A stretch of 62,615 nt of DNA from Nitrospirota bacterium (GTDB lineage: Bacteria; Nitrospirota; Thermodesulfovibrionia; Thermodesulfovibrionales; SM23-35), in NCBI GenBank assembly GCA_013388435.1, contig JACAFE010000079.1, positions 1-62,615 on the forward strand, given 5' to 3'. Position numbers and translations under genes: made by a program. The notes below the pieces were generated by a model. It did not search any database and was not told the origin of the DNA. It saw only the letters and a program-made list of their open reading frames with translations. How positions within the stretch are numbered: the stretch's first letter is position 1; each line of letters starts with the position of its first letter. This document shows, one piece after another, positions 229 to 46,372 of this stretch.

Positions 229-379
229 AAATTTGTTAAACGCAATAAACGCAACAAACGCTATTCGCTCTTTGCCTTCAGCATTTTTTATTAACTATGA
301 GCAATATCAGTATTATTAGGGATTAAAAGAAGAATGTTTTTTTGCTAAATAATGTAGAAATATTTGATAATATAAACAT

Positions 380-385: not shown

Positions 386-429
386 TTTACCCGGTTAAAT
401 TAAGAATAAAGCTATTAAGGAAGGTTTAA

Positions 430-2913
430 ATGAAAAACAAATATGAAAACGTTCCGCATTTGGGTGATAAACATAGAGAGAATATTAATGAAAAGGCTGA
501 TGTACAGTCAATTAAGCAGGCAATTCTTAATAACCTTTTCTATAATCTTGCAAGGCTTCCTCATTCAGCCACTGTTAATGACTGGTATCTTGCTATCTCT
601 TATACAATCAGGGACATGATGATTAAAAAATGGGTTAATTCTGTTCAGGAAATTACTGAAGATATAAAGGTTGTTGCTTTTTTGTCCGATGAATTTCTCT
701 CAGGCCCTCAACTCGAAATGAACATCATAAATCTTGATGTTTATTCTGAAGTGTCTCAAGCTGTTCAGGAATTAGGACTCAATCTGAATGAAATTAAAAC
801 GGCAGAAAACGAGCCGGGGCTTGGATATGGGAGAGCTGGAAGTTTTGCAGCTTCCTCTCTTGATTCACTTACTACACTCGGGATTCCTGCTATAGGATAC
901 GGAATCAGATATGAATTCGGACAATTTAAACAGGATTTTCAGGATGGATGGCAGATTGAAAAAACAGACAAATGGCTTAGTTCTGGAAATCCATGGGAAA
1001 TTTTAAGAGGCGATATTTCTTATACAGTAAATCTCGGTGGTACTACACAATCATACTATGATGAACATAATAATTTTAAAGTTAAGTGGACTCCGAAATT
1101 TGCTATAAAAGGAATTGCTTATGATATTCCTGTTACAGGTTACAAAACCAATAAAATAAATCTTGTTCGTCTCTGGAAGACAGAAGCTATTGAGTCTTTT
1201 GATTATGATGCATTTAACATGGGAGATTACCTCAGCCGTTTAAATGAAAAAATTGCCTCTGAATCAATAGGAAAGATTCTTTATCCTGATGATGAGCCAT
1301 ATCTTGGAAAACACCTCAGACTATCCCAGCAGTACTTTTTTGTTTCATGTGCTCTTCAGGATTTAATACGTCTTCATCTTTTAAGATGGAAAAATATACA
1401 TTCATTTTCTGATTCCTTTGCAATTCAATTAAATAGCGCAAATCCAGCTATCGCAGTTGCAGAATTGATGAGACTCTTGATTGACGAGCATCAGGTTGAT
1501 TGGGATAGAGCATGGTATATTACTCAGAATAGTTTCTCATATACCAATTATGCTGTTGTTCAAGAAGCTCTTAAAAAATGGCCTCTGCCCATATTTGCAA
1601 GCATTCTTCCAAGACATATTGAAATCATATACGAAATAAACAAAAGATTTTTAGACGAGATATGGCTGAAATATCCGAATAACAATGAAAAACTATCTCG
1701 CCTTTCCATAATTGATGAAAATGACCAGAAATATGTAAGAATGGCGCATCTCGCTTCACTCGGCAGTCATATTATTAATGGCATCTCGGAACGTCATACT
1801 GAATTACTTAAGGAAAACCTTATTCCTGATATTTTCGAACTCTATCCCGAGAGGTTTCGCAACATTACAGGTGGTGTGTCACACAGGAGATGGCTGCTGT
1901 TGAGCAATCCCGAACTTGCCGAGCTTATTTCCGGGACAATTGGGGATAAATGGATAAAAAGTTTTAACGGGATAAAACAACTTGAAGCCTTCTCAAATGA
2001 CCCGGGGCTTATCAAAAAATGGCAGGAAGTAAAATTTAAGAATAAGAATAAACTTGCTGACTTTATTAAACGATACAATGGTGATTCAATTGATACTTCA
2101 GCAATTTTTGATGTACAGGCAGGCAGGATACATGAGCAAAAAAGACAGCATCTGAATTTATTGCATATAATAACTCTATTCAATCGCGTAAAAAAAGAGC
2201 CTTCATTAAATATAAATCCGCGAGTTTTTATATTCAGCGGAAAAGCAGCACCCGGATATTTCATCGCAAATCTTATTGTTAAACTTATTAATTCTGTTGC
2301 TGAAATAATCAACAAGGACCCTGATGTTGCCGGTAGAATTAAAGTTATTTTCTTGCCGGATTTTAATGTAGAAAAAGCACAGATAATTTTTCCTGCGACT
2401 GATATTGCAGAGCAGATCTCAACCGCAGGCAAGGAATCTTTTTCTTCGAGTCATATTAAATTTTTAATGAATGGAGCGCTTTCTATTTGCACTATTAATG
2501 GCGGGATAGATGAAATTTGCAGGGAAATCGGAGATGATAATTACTTCAGGTTCGGGTTAAGTCCGCAACAGATAAGTGAAAAGAAAACCAATGGATATAA
2601 TCCAATGGAATATTATAATTCTAATTCTGAACTCAAAGACGCAATAAATCTAATAAGTTCAGGATTCTTCCACAAAAAAGACCCGGCACTTTTTAAACCA
2701 TTAATTGACTCCTTGTTATGTAGAGATGAGCAGATGGTGCTTGCGGATTATCAATCATATATTGAATGTCAGACAAATGCTGAGAAACTATTCAGGGATA
2801 AAAAAACATGGACAAAAAGGTCAATATTGACAGTGGCTGGAATGGGTTATTTTTCATCCGACCGAATGATTTCAGAATACAATAATCTAATCTGGTACGC
2901 ATCAACTTCCTAA
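430..2913 (+). CDS. Divergent glycogen/alpha-glucan phosphorylase homologue, probable pseudoenzyme
   Basis: The 827-residue protein aligns over its whole length with GT35 glycogen phosphorylases (SGKAAPGYF, LLLSNPELAELI, FDVQAGRIHEQKRQ, GYGIRYEFG). The PLP-anchoring lysine is retained at K677 in the motif SHIKF. Key catalytic segments are altered. The glycine-rich GNGGLGRL loop is GYGRAGSF (132-139). The EASGTGNMK phosphate/PLP loop reads ESFSSSHIK. The active-site histidine of the TNHTV motif is tyrosine (Y374). The DTHP motif reads SANP. A normal phosphorylase releases glucose-1-phosphate from glycogen; this copy probably binds glucan or PLP without normal phosphorolysis, or uses another chemistry. 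The start has a good AAGGAAGG ribosome site. It stands alone and converges on ftsZ. The family assignment is firm; loss of activity is inferred. Confidence 0.85.
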   Translation: MKNKYENVPHLGDKHRENINEKADVQSIKQAILNNLFYNLARLPHSATVNDWYLAISYTIRDMMIKKWVNSVQEITEDIKVVAFLSDEFLSGPQLEMNIINLDVYSEVSQAVQELGLNLNEIKTAENEPGLGYGRAGSFAASSLDSLTTLGIPAIGYGIRYEFGQFKQDFQDGWQIEKTDKWLSSGNPWEILRGDISYTVNLGGTTQSYYDEHNNFKVKWTPKFAIKGIAYDIPVTGYKTNKINLVRLWKTEAIESFDYDAFNMGDYLSRLNEKIASESIGKILYPDDEPYLGKHLRLSQQYFFVSCALQDLIRLHLLRWKNIHSFSDSFAIQLNSANPAIAVAELMRLLIDEHQVDWDRAWYITQNSFSYTNYAVVQEALKKWPLPIFASILPRHIEIIYEINKRFLDEIWLKYPNNNEKLSRLSIIDENDQKYVRMAHLASLGSHIINGISERHTELLKENLIPDIFELYPERFRNITGGVSHRRWLLLSNPELAELISGTIGDKWIKSFNGIKQLEAFSNDPGLIKKWQEVKFKNKNKLADFIKRYNGDSIDTSAIFDVQAGRIHEQKRQHLNLLHIITLFNRVKKEPSLNINPRVFIFSGKAAPGYFIANLIVKLINSVAEIINKDPDVAGRIKVIFLPDFNVEKAQIIFPATDIAEQISTAGKESFSSSHIKFLMNGALSICTINGGIDEICREIGDDNYFRFGLSPQQISEKKTNGYNPMEYYNSNSELKDAINLISSGFFHKKDPALFKPLIDSLLCRDEQMVLADYQSYIECQTNAEKLFRDKKTWTKRSILTVAGMGYFSSDRMISEYNNLIWYASTS

Positions 2914-22731: not shown

Positions 22732-23829
22732 ATGTCTTCAAAAGTAACTCTTTCAGTAATCAAAGCCGATGTTGGTGGTTATGTAGGTCATTCGAGCATT
22801 CACAATGATATAATCCAAACTGCTAAGGAGAAATTAAATAATGCAACAGAGCAGGGAATTCTTATAGATTTTCATGTAACACGCTGCGGAGATGACCTTG
22901 AGTTAATAATGACTCATAAATATGGGACAGATGCTGAGGATATTCATCAACTTGCATGGAATACTTTTGTTGCATGTACTGAAGTTGCCAAAGAATTAAA
23001 ATTATATGGTGCAGGACAGGACCTTCTTTCAGACGCTTTTACAGGAACAGTAAAAGGCATGGGACCTGGAGTTGCAGAAATGGAATTTGAAGAGAGAAAA
23101 AGCGAGCCAATAATTATTTTTATGGCAGACAAAACATCTCCAGGAGCATGGAATCTTCCCTTATATAAAATATTTGCAGACCCTTTTAATACAGCAGGGC
23201 TTGTAATAGACACTACAATGCATGAAGGTTTTGTATTTGAAGTTCTTGATGTTTATAAGCGCAGGAAAATAACTTTTAGTTGCCCCGAGGAATTATACAA
23301 TCTGTTGATGTTCATAGGTGCTTTGCGAAGATTTATGATAAGAAATGTTTATAGAAAAGATGGCATGATTGCAGCAACTGCATCCACACAGAAGCTTAGT
23401 CTTATTGCAGGAAAATATGTTGGTAAAGATGACCCTGTTCTGATTGTGCGTTGTCAATCAGGACTTCCAGCGATTGGTGAGGTACTCGAACCTTTTGCAT
23501 TCCCACATACAGTCGAGGGCTGGATGCGCGGTTCACACAGAGGACCTTTAATGCCCGTTGCTTTTTATGAAGCGAATCCTTCAAGATTTGATGGACCGCC
23601 AAGAGTTATTGCTGCAGGTTTTCAATTATGCAAAGGAAAGCTCATTGGACCGAGAGATCTTTTTGATGACCCTGCTTTTGATGAAGCAAGAAGAAAAGCA
23701 AATGAGATTGCAAATTATTACAGACAGCATGGATCATTTGAACCACACAGACTCGGGCTCGAAGATCTTGAATACACTACAATGGACAAATTGATGAAAA
23801 ATCTTGAAAGCAGGTTTATTCCTGAATAA
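22732..23829 (+). CDS. fbp: Bifunctional fructose-1,6-bisphosphate aldolase/phosphatase
   Basis: Archaeal-type class V FBPase (365 residues) that condenses triose phosphates and dephosphorylates FBP in one active site, making gluconeogenesis unidirectional. Metal-binding motifs ADVGGYVGH and CGDDLEL are present near the N-terminus. The Tyr/Lys pair in NVYRKDGM fits the Schiff-base aldolase site, and a conserved C-terminal Tyr lies in NYYRQHGS. The family occurs in archaea and deep-branching, often autotrophic or thermophilic bacteria. It has a strong ribosome site (AAGGAGG) and overlaps tail-to-tail by 14 nt with the next gene. Confidence 0.96.
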   Translation: MSSKVTLSVIKADVGGYVGHSSIHNDIIQTAKEKLNNATEQGILIDFHVTRCGDDLELIMTHKYGTDAEDIHQLAWNTFVACTEVAKELKLYGAGQDLLSDAFTGTVKGMGPGVAEMEFEERKSEPIIIFMADKTSPGAWNLPLYKIFADPFNTAGLVIDTTMHEGFVFEVLDVYKRRKITFSCPEELYNLLMFIGALRRFMIRNVYRKDGMIAATASTQKLSLIAGKYVGKDDPVLIVRCQSGLPAIGEVLEPFAFPHTVEGWMRGSHRGPLMPVAFYEANPSRFDGPPRVIAAGFQLCKGKLIGPRDLFDDPAFDEARRKANEIANYYRQHGSFEPHRLGLEDLEYTTMDKLMKNLESRFIPE

Positions 23830-26422
23830 TTCTTTTTACAAATTTTTCTTCATCTGAACGTGTTTCCAGTCTGCCTTTGAGTTTTTCTTCTAACAACTGA
23901 TTCAATATTATTGAATATATAGGGCCTGGTTTTACTCCCATATTTTTAAGGTCATTTCCATTCAGAATTGTTTTAATATTTCTTAATTCTGTGAGGTATC
24001 TTGAAATGATTTTCTGCTTTTTTCTATCTCTGCACACTGCCATAATAAATAATATAATCTCCAGACTTAAATGTCTGAAGCAATTATAAATTTCAACAGG
24101 ATCATCAGATGGAAATTTCTTCATTATTTCTTTTGAACGGTTGATACCTTTGATTATTAGTTCTTTTATTTTTGAAGGCGGGGAAAGTCTTTCTATAGCT
24201 GCTTCTAATTCTTCATTCGAAAGTTTTGAAAGCAAAACCATTAAATAAAGTAAACTGCTATCCGGTTTTTCCTCAAGGAAAAGAAGCTTGAACCATGCTA
24301 AAGTTTCCTGAAGGGATTTTAGTAGATTTTCAAGTTCTTCGTTGAATATTAGACGATTATGTATAACTCTTAAAAGTCCGTAGTCGGAAAGTTTCTTTAA
24401 TGTATTGACAGGCTCGGTTTCTTTAAAAGAAAGCAATAGTTCTTCATAAATTCTCGGACCTGAAAGCATATTGAAAAGGTTCATCTCAAGAGCTGACTTG
24501 ATCAGGTTTTCGGTGTGTTTGCTGATTTTAAAACCAAACCGTTGCGCAAACCTGACTGCTCTAAAAGCCCTTGTTGGGTCCTCAATAAAACTCAGGTTAT
24601 GGAGCACTCTTATAGTTTTTTCTCTTAAATCTCTCTGGCCGCCAAAAAAATCTATTAATATCCCGAAATCCTTTGGATTAAGTTTAATGGCAAGCGTGTT
24701 GATAGTAAAATCTCTTCTGTACAGGTCTTTTTTTATTGATGATGTTTCGACTTTTGGAAGTGCTGCGGGTGATTCATAATACTCGGTTCTTGCAGTTGCT
24801 ACATCAAGTTTAAGCGCACTCGTGAAAATTTGTGCGGTTCCAAATTTTTCATGAGTTCTGACTTTTGCTTTGAGGATTTCACCGAGTTTTTTTGCGAAAG
24901 TTATACCATCACCTTCAACAACAATATCAATATCAAGATTTTCTTCTCCCCTGAGAAGGTCTCTAACAGAGCCTCCAACAAGGTAAGCATTATATCGCAA
25001 TTCATCAGCAACCTGTCCTGATAGTTTTAATAAATCATATATCTCAGATGGAAATTTCTCTTTTAACCATGAAGATAAATTCCTTCCCATTGTTGGTTTC
25101 TCTTTGGTAATCGTTTCCTCTATTTTTCTGCGTCTCAGGAATTCTTCATAAAGAGTGCGAAGCAGATCAGTTCTTGTTATAGCACCCACAATTTTATCTT
25201 TTTCTATAACTGGCATAAATCTCTGGTTCTGCTCGATCATTAGTGTTTCAATTTCTCTGATGGGAGTTCCTGGCTCTACAGTCATTGCGTCTGTTGTTGA
25301 AAAATCAATGGCTTTGCTTTTCCCAAAACCATGAAATAATGCTTTTTCGACTATTTCACGTGCAATAAGGCCGATATACTTGCCTTCTTTGAGTATAGGG
25401 AGAACATTGACTCCGTATCTTGTCATTACAGATTCAGCTTCTTTGATAGTCATATCGTATGGGATTGTAATAACAGGTCTTGTCATTATATCAGACGCTA
25501 CTTTCCCGGGTTGAACAGAAGAATTAAGAATATCTAAGATACGTTCCTCTATTATCTCAATAGATGCTTCTTTAATGGTTGCGGATGCAGCAGTCGGGTG
25601 TCCTCCTCCGCCAAACTCTGTCATAATGGAAGCCACATTCAGTTCCGGAACCCTGCTTCTTCCCACAACAAGAATTTTACCTTCCATGCCAAGCAATACA
25701 ATTACAGCATCAATATCTTCCATATCCATAATTCTATGAGCAAGATGTGCTGCATCACCCACATAAAATTCTCTCGCTGCTTTTGCTATTTTTATTCTTA
25801 TTCCTTTAATAACTATATCCTTTGAGGTCTGTAGGAGTTCATTCAATATTTCGAGTTCTTCGGTGCTTAATTCCATCTTTAGAAAATTTGCCGCTATATT
25901 TAAATTTGCACCTCTTTTGAGCAGATAAGCTGCAGCAAGCATGTCGCGCTCTGTGGTTGAAGGAAACAACATACAGCCTGTTTCTTCATAAATACCTAAG
26001 GCAAGTATAGTTGCTTCCATAGGCGTAGGATGAAGCTTTTTGTTTTTCAGTATTTCCGTAAAAATTGTTGCAGTCGCTCCAACATGTTCAATTTTTTCGA
26101 GTTCTCCTCTTATGTCCCCTGTAGTAAATGGATGATGGTCATAAATATGTATTTTTATCTTTTTATTTTGAATTAATTCAGCAAAAGGACCTATTCTTGA
26201 AGGCGTCTTTGTATCAACAAGTATAAGACGGGTTATTTTTGAAATGTCAATATCTTTTATCCTTTTTATCTTAACAGGCTGGAAAGCTTCGAGAAAATCC
26301 CTGAGTTTTTTTTCCTGAGAACCAGGGAAAACAATCTCGGCCTCGGGATAAATTTTCTTTGCCGCAACCATTGATGCGAGAGCATCAAAGTCAGCATTCA
26401 TATGTGAAGTTATAATGTCCAA
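23816..26422 (-). CDS. DHH / CBS / tRNA nucleotidyltransferase fusion (A-adding or CCA-adding)
   Basis: A multidomain protein of 868 residues. Residues 1-310 form a DHH/DHHA1 phosphodiesterase (HMNADFDA, YDHHPFTTGD, FGGGGHPTAA). Residues about 310-430 hold two CBS domains, which bind adenine nucleotides. From about 475 a class II nucleotidyltransferase follows (LVGGSVRDLL, catalytic DIDIV) with a poly(A) polymerase RNA-binding tail. Related fusions in Aquifex-type bacteria are A-adding enzymes that work with a separate CC-adding enzyme; the specificity cannot be told here. It starts with TTG one nt after the stop of the GGDEF gene, so it is co-transcribed with it. Confidence 0.92.
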   Translation of the reverse strand: MDIITSHMNADFDALASMVAAKKIYPEAEIVFPGSQEKKLRDFLEAFQPVKIKRIKDIDISKITRLILVDTKTPSRIGPFAELIQNKKIKIHIYDHHPFTTGDIRGELEKIEHVGATATIFTEILKNKKLHPTPMEATILALGIYEETGCMLFPSTTERDMLAAAYLLKRGANLNIAANFLKMELSTEELEILNELLQTSKDIVIKGIRIKIAKAAREFYVGDAAHLAHRIMDMEDIDAVIVLLGMEGKILVVGRSRVPELNVASIMTEFGGGGHPTAASATIKEASIEIIEERILDILNSSVQPGKVASDIMTRPVITIPYDMTIKEAESVMTRYGVNVLPILKEGKYIGLIAREIVEKALFHGFGKSKAIDFSTTDAMTVEPGTPIREIETLMIEQNQRFMPVIEKDKIVGAITRTDLLRTLYEEFLRRRKIEETITKEKPTMGRNLSSWLKEKFPSEIYDLLKLSGQVADELRYNAYLVGGSVRDLLRGEENLDIDIVVEGDGITFAKKLGEILKAKVRTHEKFGTAQIFTSALKLDVATARTEYYESPAALPKVETSSIKKDLYRRDFTINTLAIKLNPKDFGILIDFFGGQRDLREKTIRVLHNLSFIEDPTRAFRAVRFAQRFGFKISKHTENLIKSALEMNLFNMLSGPRIYEELLLSFKETEPVNTLKKLSDYGLLRVIHNRLIFNEELENLLKSLQETLAWFKLLFLEEKPDSSLLYLMVLLSKLSNEELEAAIERLSPPSKIKELIIKGINRSKEIMKKFPSDDPVEIYNCFRHLSLEIILFIMAVCRDRKKQKIISRYLTELRNIKTILNGNDLKNMGVKPGPIYSIILNQLLEEKLKGRLETRSDEEKFVKRIIQE

Positions 26423-42057: not shown

Positions 42058-43473
42058 ATGTCAGGAAATAAAAGAAAGACATTAAAAAAGACACCAACCT
42101 ATATTATAGGACTTGATGAAATTTTAAATGGCGGATTGCCTCACGGGCGAACTTCGCTTATTTTTGGAACTCCAGGAAATGGTAAAACAGTGATGGGAGT
42201 AGAATTTCTTTATAGAGGGGCTATTAATGGTGAGCCTGGTATTTTTCTCGGTTTTGAAGAAACAGTGAAAACCCTATGCGAAAATGCGCTTACCATGGGT
42301 TTTGATCTTTCATATTTGAAGAAAAAGAATCTAATATTTCTTATGAATGGGCAGATTGAACCTGATGTAATTGTGAGCGGGAAGTTTTCGCTCAAACCAT
42401 TGCTTTCCATTATTTCAGGAAAAGCAAAAGAAATAGGCGCAAAGAGAATTGTTCTGGATGCTCTGGATGTGGTATTTGGTTTATTAGAAAATCCTATTCA
42501 GGTACGTTCGGAATTATATCAGTTAAATCTATGGCTTATGAAGCTCGGACTTACCACACTTATTACTTTAAAACCAAGAGAAGGTTATCCAGGAACTTTG
42601 TTTCAGGATTACTTCTATTCAATATCAGATTGTGTTATCCATCTCGATGTTAGACAATTAGATCAGGTCTCCACAAGAAGATGTCGTGTAGTCAAATATC
42701 GGGGTTCTGATTTTGGAAGAAATGAATATCCTTTTATTATTACAAATAAAGGTATCCGTTTAATTCCGATTACAAAGTTTGACTTGAGGCATAAACCTTT
42801 TGGAGAGAGAATTTCTTCAGGCATTAAAAGACTCGATGAGATGCTCGGAGGAGGCTATCAGAGAGCATCATGTATTCTTTTTGCAGGTGAACCAGGAACA
42901 GGGAAAACTATTCTCGCATCAACTTTTGTTACGCAGATGTGCAAACAAAATGAAAGAGTTCTGTATTTAAGTTTTGAGGAATCACCTGATGCAATTACTC
43001 ATAACGTAACAAGCGTTGGACTAAATCTCGAACGATTTTTAAACTCAGGGAAGCTTTTAATTTATGGAACAATGCCTGAGGCAACCGGTGTTGAAGAACA
43101 TTTAATGAGACTTTTTGACAAAGTTGAAAGCTTTAGCCCACAACATGTGATTATAGATGCCATTTCTGCTTGTGAAAGAATAGGTGGAAAGGAAGCTGCA
43201 TTTGATTATCTTATGCGTATTTTAAATTTCCTGAAGGAAAAAGGAATAACAGTAGTTCTTACAAACCAAACATCAGGGAGAAAATCACAGCTCGAAATAT
43301 CAGGAAATGGAATATCATCCATGGTGGATACCGTCATTTTTATAACATATGTGCATGGTGAGAAAGAGGTTAATAGAACTATTCAGATTCTCAAAGCAAG
43401 AGGATCGAGCCATTCAAATAAAATAAAAGGATTCAGGATAAATGATAGCGGGATAGAGATTTATGATATTTAA
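42058..43473 (+). CDS. kaiC: KaiC-like double-domain clock ATPase/kinase
   Basis: A 471-residue protein with two RecA-like KaiC domains. CI has Walker A GTPGNGKT (37-44) and catalytic glutamates E67-E68. CII has GEPGTGKT (277-284) and E307-E308. The cyanobacterial Ser-Thr phosphorylation pair aligns with S420-S421 here, so a two-site phosphorylation cycle is possible. The C-terminal A-loop/KaiA-binding tail is absent, in line with the lack of kaiA. It leads an operon with a KaiB and an EAL protein. Known relatives outside cyanobacteria act as timers or stress switches; the partner here suggests control of c-di-GMP. Confidence 0.9.
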   Translation: MSGNKRKTLKKTPTYIIGLDEILNGGLPHGRTSLIFGTPGNGKTVMGVEFLYRGAINGEPGIFLGFEETVKTLCENALTMGFDLSYLKKKNLIFLMNGQIEPDVIVSGKFSLKPLLSIISGKAKEIGAKRIVLDALDVVFGLLENPIQVRSELYQLNLWLMKLGLTTLITLKPREGYPGTLFQDYFYSISDCVIHLDVRQLDQVSTRRCRVVKYRGSDFGRNEYPFIITNKGIRLIPITKFDLRHKPFGERISSGIKRLDEMLGGGYQRASCILFAGEPGTGKTILASTFVTQMCKQNERVLYLSFEESPDAITHNVTSVGLNLERFLNSGKLLIYGTMPEATGVEEHLMRLFDKVESFSPQHVIIDAISACERIGGKEAAFDYLMRILNFLKEKGITVVLTNQTSGRKSQLEISGNGISSMVDTVIFITYVHGEKEVNRTIQILKARGSSHSNKIKGFRINDSGIEIYDI

Positions 43474-43510
43474 ATATTAAGGATTCAGAGAAAATATGGG
43501 GAGGGATAAA

Positions 43511-43864
43511 TTGGCTGATAGCAAACGGGCTAAAAAGAAAGAAAAATTAGCTAATAAAACTGAGAAAAACAAAAATCTGCTTCATTATAATTTAAGGTTA
43601 TTCATTGCAGGTGATGAACCAAATTCAAAAATGGCAGAAAAAACTTTGAAGGATATATGTGAAAAATACCTTCATGGCAGTTATAAACTCGAAATAATTG
43701 ATGTGACTAAGGATTTTAATATATCACTTGAGGAAAAGGTCTTTTTTGCCCCGACTTTGATTATCGAGACTCCTGAATTTAAATCAAGAATTGTCGGTTC
43801 TCTGAACGATGTTCAAAAGTTACTTGAACTTCTCGGCTTGTCTGAAACAGGAGGGAATAAGTGA
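43511..43864 (+). CDS. kaiB: KaiB-family protein
   Basis: A thioredoxin-like KaiB domain covers about residues 23-110, with LRLFIAGDEPNS and the cis-proline segment FFAPTLI that matches the ATPTL of cyanobacterial KaiB. An extra Lys-rich N-terminal stretch of about 20 residues precedes it. I chose TTG 43511, because GGGAGG lies six nt upstream; the in-frame ATG at 43496 has no ribosome site and would add five residues. It starts 37 nt after kaiC. KaiB is a fold-switching partner of KaiC, so a direct interaction is expected. Confidence 0.9.
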   Translation: MADSKRAKKKEKLANKTEKNKNLLHYNLRLFIAGDEPNSKMAEKTLKDICEKYLHGSYKLEIIDVTKDFNISLEEKVFFAPTLIIETPEFKSRIVGSLNDVQKLLELLGLSETGGNK

Positions 43865-45672
43865 GCAAGAAGAAGCTAACTTACAAAGAACTACAGGAAA
43901 AGCTCACTCAGGCTGAAGAAGCTATAGAAGCATTACGTTCAGGAAGAGTAGATGTAATACTGGGTGAGAATTGCCCTCTTGTAATTAAGGCAAAACATTT
44001 TGAAGAAGAATCTAAAAAACTAAATGCTGCGATTGAACAGACATCTGATTGGGTTCTTATAACCGACAGGGATGGAACTATTGAATATGTAAATAAAGCT
44101 GTTGAAAGAATATCAGAATATGGCAGAGAAGAACTAATCGGCAAAAATCCAAGAATATTTAAATCAGGAAAACATAATAGAGAATTTTACAAAAATTTAT
44201 GGGACACGATATGTTCCGGTAATACATTTAACGCAATATTGATAAACAGGAAAAAAACAGGAGATTTATTCGAACTGCATTATACAATAACACCCTTAAA
44301 AGACGAAGAAGGTCAAATTCATCATTTTATAGCTACAGCAAAGGATTTAACAGAACAAAAGATTCTTAAAGAACAGATAGAATATATATCGAAATATGAT
44401 ATTTTAACCGGTCTTTATAACAGGAAATATTTTGCACATGAAATTGACGAGTTGGCAGAAGAAGCTCAGAAACAGACAGTTAAATTTGCCGTGGTTGTTG
44501 TTGATATTGATAGATTTACAGCTTTGAATGATACCTTTGGTTTTGAAGCCGGGGATGAAATATTAAAAAGAGCGGGCAGGAGAATTGTCAATAGTATCTG
44601 TGCAGAATGTAAAGTTGCGCGGTTTGAAGCTGACAAATATGGAATACTCCTTTCTGATATAGAAAACCCTGAGGATATAATTTTGGTGCTTGAAAAAATA
44701 AGAAGCAATTTTAATAACTCATTCAAAATTGACAATGAAGATGTATTCCTCTCACTAAGCATGGGCATTTCAATATTCCCTGAAAATGGCAATAGCGCAG
44801 AAAATCTGATAAAAAATGCTGAAGTTGCTCTCTCAAAAGCGAAGTCAGTAAGGTTGAATAACTACCAGTTTTTCGAAGAAGAAATCAATATTAAAACCTC
44901 TGAATTTGTACATATGCAGAGACATTTATTTCACGCGCTCGAGAAAAATGAATTTATTATGCATTATCAACCTTATTTTGATTGTCAGACCCGTGAATTA
45001 AAGGGTTTAGAAGCATTGATCCGCTGGAATAGTCCAAAATTCGGTCTTGTGCTTCCCGGTATGTTTATACCATTTCTTGAAGAAACAGGGATGATACTGG
45101 AAGTTGGAAAATGGATTATAAGAACAGTGTGTAAACAGATTAAGACATGGATAAATAAAGGTTATGAAAAAAATATTGTTCCTGTATATATAAATCTTTC
45201 CTCAACGCAGTTTGCTCAAAAAAATCTTATGGATTTTATAAATGAGACAATAGAACAGACTGGTATAAAACCTGAATATCTCGGATTTGAGATTACTGAA
45301 AGCACATTTATAGAAGATATTGAAAATACAAAAGCTGTTCTTGAAAGTTTCAAACAAAAAGGAATTTCAGTAAATATAGATGACTTTGGAACAGGATATT
45401 CATCACTTAGCAGTTTATGGAAGTTGCCCTTTAATAATTTAAAGATAGATTGTTCTTTTATCAAAGAATTAACAAGTAATCCTGATAATACTTTTATAGT
45501 AATAACAATAATCTCACTTGCCCATAACCTTAATATTAAGACAATCGCCGAAGGAGTTGAGAATGAACTCCAATGGCAGACTCTTCGCATTCTGAAATGC
45601 GATATGGTGCAGGGATACTATTTCAGTAAGCCTTTGTCAGCGGATGAAATTGAGAGATTCCTTAAGAGTTAA
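43861..45672 (+). CDS. PAS / degenerate GGDEF / EAL c-di-GMP phosphodiesterase
   Basis: A soluble 603-residue protein. Its N-terminal coiled coil (EEAIEALRSGRVDVILG) is typical of proteins linked with KaiB/KaiC signalling. A PAS domain (about 55-170) follows, then a GGDEF domain whose signature is EADKY (256-260), hence catalytically dead and perhaps GTP-sensing. The EAL domain (from about 350) keeps EAL (384-386), NLSSTQF, FEITEST, the metal pair D507-D508 and AEGVENE, so it should hydrolyse c-di-GMP. GTG start overlaps kaiB by four bases, so the two are translationally coupled. Confidence 0.92.
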   Translation: MSKKKLTYKELQEKLTQAEEAIEALRSGRVDVILGENCPLVIKAKHFEEESKKLNAAIEQTSDWVLITDRDGTIEYVNKAVERISEYGREELIGKNPRIFKSGKHNREFYKNLWDTICSGNTFNAILINRKKTGDLFELHYTITPLKDEEGQIHHFIATAKDLTEQKILKEQIEYISKYDILTGLYNRKYFAHEIDELAEEAQKQTVKFAVVVVDIDRFTALNDTFGFEAGDEILKRAGRRIVNSICAECKVARFEADKYGILLSDIENPEDIILVLEKIRSNFNNSFKIDNEDVFLSLSMGISIFPENGNSAENLIKNAEVALSKAKSVRLNNYQFFEEEINIKTSEFVHMQRHLFHALEKNEFIMHYQPYFDCQTRELKGLEALIRWNSPKFGLVLPGMFIPFLEETGMILEVGKWIIRTVCKQIKTWINKGYEKNIVPVYINLSSTQFAQKNLMDFINETIEQTGIKPEYLGFEITESTFIEDIENTKAVLESFKQKGISVNIDDFGTGYSSLSSLWKLPFNNLKIDCSFIKELTSNPDNTFIVITIISLAHNLNIKTIAEGVENELQWQTLRILKCDMVQGYYFSKPLSADEIERFLKS

Positions 45673-45703
45673 AACTCGTTGGAATAAGAAGGAGATTTTA
45701 TAT

Positions 45704-46372
45704 ATGGAAGATTTAAAGCATTCCGAGACATGGAGAGTATTCAGAATTCAATCAGAACTTGTTGAGGGTTTTGAGACTTTAAATGACCTTGGTCCTGCGG
45801 TGGCAATTTTTGGGAGTTCCCGCATGAAGCCAGGCTCACATTATTACAAAAAAGCTGTTGAACTTGGCAGATTTCTTTCGAATTCAGGTTTTTCAGTTAT
45901 AACAGGCGGAGGGCCCGGAATTATGGAAGGCGCCAATAGAGGAGCCAAGAAAGGCAAGGGAAAATCAGTTGGACTGAATATAGAAATTCCGGCAGAACAG
46001 CATCCCAATCCTTATCAGGATATAAATCTTTCTTTCAGATATTTTTTTATCAGAAAACTAATGTTTGTCAAATATTCGATGGCTTTTATTATATTTCCGG
46101 GCGGATTTGGCACAATGGATGAATTGTTCGAGGCATTGACCTTATCTCAAACAAAAAAGATAGGAGTATTCCCTATAATTCTATTTGGTAGCGAATACTG
46201 GTCTGGATTGGTTGAATGGTTCAGATCAACACTTATACCGCACAATACAATTGATGCAAAGGATCTCGGGTTATTCAGTGTTGTTGATGAAGTTCATGAA
46301 GTCTGTGGAATTTTGCAGGAATACAGAAAAGCATATAATCAGGAAATACCCGAATGCAAACAACTAAGATAA
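45704..46372 (+). CDS. LOG-family Rossmann protein (nucleotide phosphoribohydrolase-like)
   Basis: A 222-residue protein of the TIGR00730/LOG family. The signatures GGGPGIMEGANRGA and PGGFGTMDE define the family, members of which remove the base from cytokinin or purine 5'-monophosphates. ATG 45704 follows AGAAGGAG by about eight nt. It is 31 nt behind the EAL gene and may belong to the same operon. An activity on AMP-like nucleotides is possible, but not shown by sequence. Confidence 0.92.
   Translation: MEDLKHSETWRVFRIQSELVEGFETLNDLGPAVAIFGSSRMKPGSHYYKKAVELGRFLSNSGFSVITGGGPGIMEGANRGAKKGKGKSVGLNIEIPAEQHPNPYQDINLSFRYFFIRKLMFVKYSMAFIIFPGGFGTMDELFEALTLSQTKKIGVFPIILFGSEYWSGLVEWFRSTLIPHNTIDAKDLGLFSVVDEVHEVCGILQEYRKAYNQEIPECKQLR

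Follow-up and report, generated by a model that had tools for sequence, protein, structure and literature searches.

Glycogen phosphorylase is a textbook example of allostery. No natural pseudoenzyme is known to us in its family, GT35, and a full-text search of an open-access library found none. A precedent for how such a protein might act comes from plants, where the beta-amylase pseudoenzymes BAM4 and BAM9 lack catalytic residues and regulate starch breakdown (PMC12892837). These proteins belong to the beta-amylase family, which is unrelated to phosphorylase, and miss one catalytic glutamate, whereas the bacterial pseudo-phosphorylase considered here has lost most of its site. The phosphorylase fold can also take protein partners, as seen in the solved bacterial complex of E. 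coli GlgP with HPr (PDB 9s8k), although in that complex a canonical GlgP is bound, and by HPr instead of a LOG protein, the candidate partner discussed below. Type II LOG proteins, defined by a PGGxGTxxE motif with catalytic Arg and Glu residues, include Cg1261 and Tt1465, which are hexameric and hydrolyze AMP (PMC5379747). In the literature covered, no phosphorylase-like partner was reported for either of them. Among GT35 enzymes of the TIGR02093 type, the GlgP of Crocosphaera subtropica (PDB 9wvu) shares 52% identity over 805 columns and the PLP lysine with the protein described here, in which the glycine loop, DTHP motif, H377, N484, K568, and GTGN loop of that enzyme are nevertheless replaced.

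The gene occupies positions 430 to 2913 on the forward strand of the window, by which we mean the whole 62,615-nucleotide stretch of Nitrospirota DNA analyzed, and is classed as a pseudo-glycogen-phosphorylase gene from its open reading frame, profile matches, and structural model. As the original prediction had stated, the frame is complete, running from an ATG at 430 to a stop at 2913 and encoding 827 amino acids with no internal stop or frameshift. GT35 family matches span the protein end to end (PF00343, 919 bits; TIGR02093, 978 bits), and with its GT-B phosphorylase fold and PLP lysine it has the features of a GT35 (PF00343) protein. TIGR02094 ("more_P_ylases"), a profile of more distant GT35 relatives, gave a partial, weak match of 67.6 bits against a cut-off of 191.7. 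The score against the NCBIfam glycogen phosphorylase equivalog NF011562 was 805.7 bits, below the cut-off of 1546, but this cut-off is narrow, so missing it says little by itself. The structure modeling that had been proposed predicts that the complete glycogen phosphorylase fold is kept: an AlphaFold model built from 62 sequences reached a pLDDT of 89.6 (13 sequences gave 43), matched Crocosphaera GlgP with a TM score of 0.95, and could also be superposed on the E. coli and mammalian enzymes.

Upstream of the gene, a consensus scan picked out a putative sigma-70-like promoter (342..371, forward strand; TTGCTA, 18 nt, GATAAT); the number of such hits was not above chance, and the stretch is largely identical in the sister species. 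Sequence reading placed a Shine-Dalgarno-like AAGGAAGG at 417..424 on the same strand, 5 nt before the ATG, and this too is kept in the sister species. Short G+C-rich inverted-repeat-like stretches, such as gacccgcaaagcgggtc, lie at the upstream contig end (1-240), where the sister gene's upstream region cannot be aligned. On its other side the gene adjoins, tail to tail, ftsZ and the remaining division and cell wall (dcw) cluster. No relative indicating viral origin or carriage was found in IMG/VR, and all plasmid-borne relatives fall below 60% identity.

Within this intact frame, the original prediction held that the GNGG loop, the GTGN phosphate loop, the TNHTV histidine, and the DTHP motif were all altered while the PLP lysine remained. 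Residue-by-residue alignment agreed on every count and added N484 and K568 to the losses. On the forward strand, the NGG of the glycine loop (rabbit residues 133-135) has become Y133-G134-R135 (826..834), DTHP now reads S336-A337-N338-P339 (SANP; 1435..1446), the equivalent of rabbit H377 is Y374 (1549..1551) as TNHTV has changed to TNYAV, the equivalent of N484 in TNG is G481 (1870..1872), and the GTGN phosphate loop (rabbit 675-678) has given way to S672-S673-S674-H675 (SSSH; 2443..2454). K568 and K574 are the phosphate-site lysines of glycogen phosphorylase; the equivalent of the first is now G565 (2122..2124), and that of the second, K571, is kept. The PLP lysine, K677 (rabbit K680; 2458..2460), is retained. 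Over 25 active-site positions the protein carries 18 changes and 48 canonical homologues carry none, and the full set of features of an active glycogen phosphorylase (NGG at 133-135, K568 with K574, GTG(N), H377, N484, and DTHP) is lacking. Judged by these residues, phosphorolytic activity has presumably been lost and glucose-1-phosphate would not be made.

Orthologues were sought in 20 species genomes of one uncultured Thermodesulfovibrionales (Nitrospirota) family, and 13 were found, one per genome and including the window's own. They share 54-87% identity with the window protein (87% in the sister species, 54-64% in the other 11), and canonical homologues start at about 54%. The 48 canonical proteins used for comparison came from Nitrospirota, Cyanobacteria, Bacillota, Verrucomicrobiota, and other groups and included the nearest relatives (49-54% identity). 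All 13 orthologues are eroded, with 4 to 19 changes at the 25 active-site positions. An intact NGG loop occurs in none of them and in 48 of 48 canonical proteins, and each lacks K568 or K574 (K574 is gone in nine, K568 in four), both of which are invariant in the 48 homologues. Changes fell more often on site columns than on other canonical-invariant columns (Fisher p = 1.7e-5 for all 13 members; p = 2.3e-4 without the window's own genus), where the p values count related sequences as independent. In the tree the 13 form one clade (SH-aLRT 100), which branches from within the canonical GlgPs of Nitrospirota and cyanobacteria.

These orthologues also bear on the origin of the gene. It begins 430 bases from a contig end in a metagenome-assembled genome (2.15 Mb, 98% complete), which might point to a recent mutated allele, a mis-assembly, or a frameshift-masked artefact confined to a single metagenome bin. 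No close homologue had canonical motifs, the observation named in advance as indicating such an allele; instead, the sister and the 11 other orthologues are eroded, 13 independent genomes carry such genes, and in the independently assembled sister species (L003/L037) the gene likewise adjoins ftsZ and has the same motif losses. We therefore reject a mutated allele or assembly artefact and give it practically no weight. A second, milder erosion (N133D, G677S, N678S) was seen in genome G013, which is without the pseudo-phosphorylase/LOG pair; it affects L022 on contig 132, that genome's only TIGR02093-type GT35 and an orthologue of the canonical GlgP of the window's own genome.

Not every site residue has been lost. 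Most of the 13 orthologues still have R569 and E672 (or D), and the least eroded members have four or five changes; one of these, the least eroded of all (L010: N133S, G134S, K574N, S674T), could by its sequence retain some activity. Together with the finding that 9 of the 13 genomes have no second TIGR02093-type GT35, this is what would be expected of an ordinary, perhaps slow, glycogen phosphorylase that tolerates substitutions. We consider that reading improbable, as every member is without an intact NGG loop and without one or other of two otherwise invariant lysines, and as the genomes have other phosphorylases. The window's own genome encodes a second GlgP (L002, contig 56), which belongs to the same family and is 42% identical to the window protein, but has all 25 motif positions intact and falls in another lineage of the tree. 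Intact TIGR02094 alpha-glucan phosphorylases are present in all 20 family genomes, every pair genome included, so glucan phosphorolysis could continue even with this GT35 lost as an enzyme. Of the other glucan-related domains, a GlgA-type domain (PF08323) was found in 18 of the 20 family genomes, the search coming up empty in the window's own genome, where its absence could be an assembly gap, and in G002. CBM48, as in branching and debranching enzymes, occurs in 19 of 20, and the window's own genome has CBM48 proteins along with two or more phosphorylases.

The original prediction had interpreted the pattern not as decay but as a selective loss of catalytic residues, and this is supported. 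Between the window gene and its sister, dN/dS (NG86) was 0.10, with 0.10-0.14 in two further pairs and 0.05 and 0.14 for the canonical paralogue, and none of the 13 orthologues has a stop in frame. Constraint is unevenly distributed: segments 121-140, 441-460, 561-580, and 661-700, which hold active-site residues, vary more than they do in the canonical sister group, and most remaining segments vary less, particularly 61-80, 261-320, 341-360, and 741-780. Columns at least 95% conserved in canonical proteins evolve at 0.38-0.47 times the background rate in pairs of pseudo-phosphorylases and at 0.00-0.11 times in canonical pairs. Catalytic residues have thus been lost while purifying selection acts on the remaining protein, as in a pseudoenzyme. 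Relaxed constraint in the catalytic core, and the absence of the gene and its LOG companion from 7 of the 20 family genomes, could also describe a pseudogene on its way out that has yet to acquire stops. Such a fate is very improbable, and largely refuted, given 13 intact frames over a family-deep clade at dN/dS values of 0.10-0.14, many regions that are better conserved than in active relatives, and conservation of the putative promoter and ribosome-binding stretch.

A complete frame, purifying selection, and a retained PLP lysine would suit equally a neofunctionalized enzyme whose altered site catalyzes another PLP- or sugar-phosphate reaction. A new activity should fix a common set of new residues, however, and different active-site residues have been lost in different lineages, with no position at which all 13 proteins share one new residue; we regard neofunctionalization as improbable on this account. 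Of the clade that GT35 alignment was expected to reveal, the eroded group itself was recovered, at 13 members, but not a single fixed set of replacement motifs. Because the losses differ between lineages, we read the pocket as being under relaxed constraint in a still-selected protein and not as a new active site, and a non-catalytic function maintained by selection is, from these sequence comparisons, very likely. Of 19 core site columns, K677 alone shows no change across the 13 proteins; a structural role of PLP would account for this, and PLP may accordingly serve as a structural cofactor in the pseudo-phosphorylase.

The most conserved block of the clade, which hardly varies at all, comprises the tower helix, 280s loop, and alpha-8 (residues 267-321; 1228..1392, forward strand). 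Within it, R314-L-H-L-L-R-W-K321 is identical in all 13 orthologues and variable in the canonical sister group, and R314 aligns with mammalian Arg309 in our alignment. In the mammalian enzyme these elements provide a dimer contact, the active-site gate, and Arg309/Arg310 of the glucose-6-phosphate (G6P)/nucleotide effector site (PMC10116597, which the rabbit names used here for regions of the window protein follow). With its active site lost in parallel and its tower, 280s loop, and alpha-8 frozen, the clade offers a natural experiment that parts the regulatory from the catalytic portions of the fold. The automatic label "glycogen phosphorylase" is probably wrong for this gene across the whole bacterial family.

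The sole repeated neighbor of the pseudo-phosphorylase gene encodes a type II LOG family protein of about 240 amino acids. What is new here is their co-occurrence: LOG is present in the same 13 of 20 family genomes as the pseudo-phosphorylase and absent from the other seven. In whole-genome searches, 12 of the 13 yielded a copy with 89-100% identity to the query, and the window's own genome yielded a 91-residue piece at a contig end, unlinked to the pseudo-phosphorylase and ending before the PGGFGTLDE and FFVRK motifs. Complete copies contain both motifs and the catalytic Arg and Glu (TIGR00730, 169.6 bits), as expected of a type II LOG. Their best PDB matches are Cg1261 and Tt1465 (5wq3, 1wek), with which they share PGGFGTLDE and the catalytic Arg and Glu and from which they differ in a distinct conserved N-terminal stretch. 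Six genomes have LOG immediately downstream (gaps of 6, 15, 55, 65, and 68 bp, with the genes overlapping by 1 bp in G008), two have it one gene off, and five have it 7 kb off or unlinked. In G014 (L121, 5000-12300), the approximately 7 kb between the two genes carry Schlafen/AlbA_2 and DNA-methylase signatures and look like an insertion that split the pair. Four other candidate partners, an HNH protein, a CxxCxxCC protein, an acyltransferase, and an ABC ATPase, were rejected since each recurs in at most 5 of the 13 genomes; a LOG gene in the window itself (45644-46369) was likewise set aside as a separate, generic LOG with 48% identity.

The exact match of 13 in 20 has a chance of about 1 in 77,520, or about 1 in 1,820 among genomes at least 90% complete (12 of 16), with linkage ignored in both figures; the sample is all 20 family genomes that exist, and 3 of the 7 without the pair are less than 85% complete. 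On a species tree made from RpoB alone, presence of the pair is scattered, with six changes, five of them forced by supported branches, and its clustering does not exceed that of shuffled labels. Conservation is stronger in LOG than in RpoB (mean difference, 8% versus 14%). After RpoB is allowed for, LOG distances still track pseudo-phosphorylase distances (partial r = 0.58, permutation p = 0.004), a correlation that owes something to the near-identical genomes G009 and G018; by itself, the LOG tree has too little resolution for branch-by-branch comparison. Such tracking of each other and not of RpoB is also what joint transfer predicts, and the genes are immediate neighbors in six genomes and separated by a single gene in two, so both could be passengers of one mobile or linked block, their association being incidental. 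We find this possible, if on the unlikely side: five genomes keep both genes though unlinked or 7 kb apart, and no other neighbor is common to more than 5 of the 13. Relatives of the partner LOG (63-70% identity) are encoded elsewhere in the Nitrospirota by genomes that have no degenerate GT35, indicating that LOG does not need the pseudo-phosphorylase. Three of these relatives (L134, L136, and L137; ORF starts only) adjoin an apparent phosphoketolase/acetate kinase in one genome and a transketolase in two, neighbors suggesting that LOG may have a role in ribose-5-phosphate supply or a link to the pentose phosphate pathway.

The eroded active site, the still-selected body, and the constant co-occurrence with LOG together point to a protein that probably serves as a regulator or scaffold and not as a catalyst. 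Our preferred explanation, which we hold to be likely, is that the pseudo-phosphorylase persists in a non-catalytic role, as a regulatory or scaffold protein that is probably dimeric and plausibly works with the LOG AMP-hydrolase. Selection would have ceased to act on the GT35 phosphorolytic site while actively keeping the rest of the protein, and a dimer, probably PLP-stabilized, would serve as the regulatory or scaffold element. The most plausible partner is the LOG enzyme, which would convert AMP to adenine and ribose-5-phosphate and whose activity or location the pseudo-phosphorylase may tie to glucan or nucleotide status. A functional link between the two proteins appears somewhat probable, and a direct complex is conceivable, although we lean against assuming one. 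More speculatively, and with rather low confidence, the two could constitute a dedicated system in which a type II LOG AMP-hydrolase has the dead phosphorylase dimer as its regulatory subunit, which senses energy or glycogen status. Sensing might then occur through the part of the dimer interface that was formerly the AMP/G6P effector region (alpha-8, 280s loop, and tower) or through former glucan sites, and the status sensed would control conversion of AMP to adenine and ribose-5-phosphate; AMP or glucan sensing and direct binding are the least certain parts of the model. The pseudo-phosphorylase is thereby a specific candidate partner for type II LOG proteins, whose function in bacteria is little understood.

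Elsewhere in the window, an 868-amino-acid fusion on the reverse strand (23816-26422) joins DHH/DHHA1 and two CBS domains to a polyA-polymerase/tRNA-nucleotidyltransferase head. A double-domain KaiC-like ATPase (471 amino acids), a 122-amino-acid ORF, and a PAS-GGDEF-EAL protein lie close together on the same strand at 42058-45672, and a fructose-1,6-bisphosphatase of the PF01950 (FBPase_3) type is encoded on the forward strand at 22732-23829.
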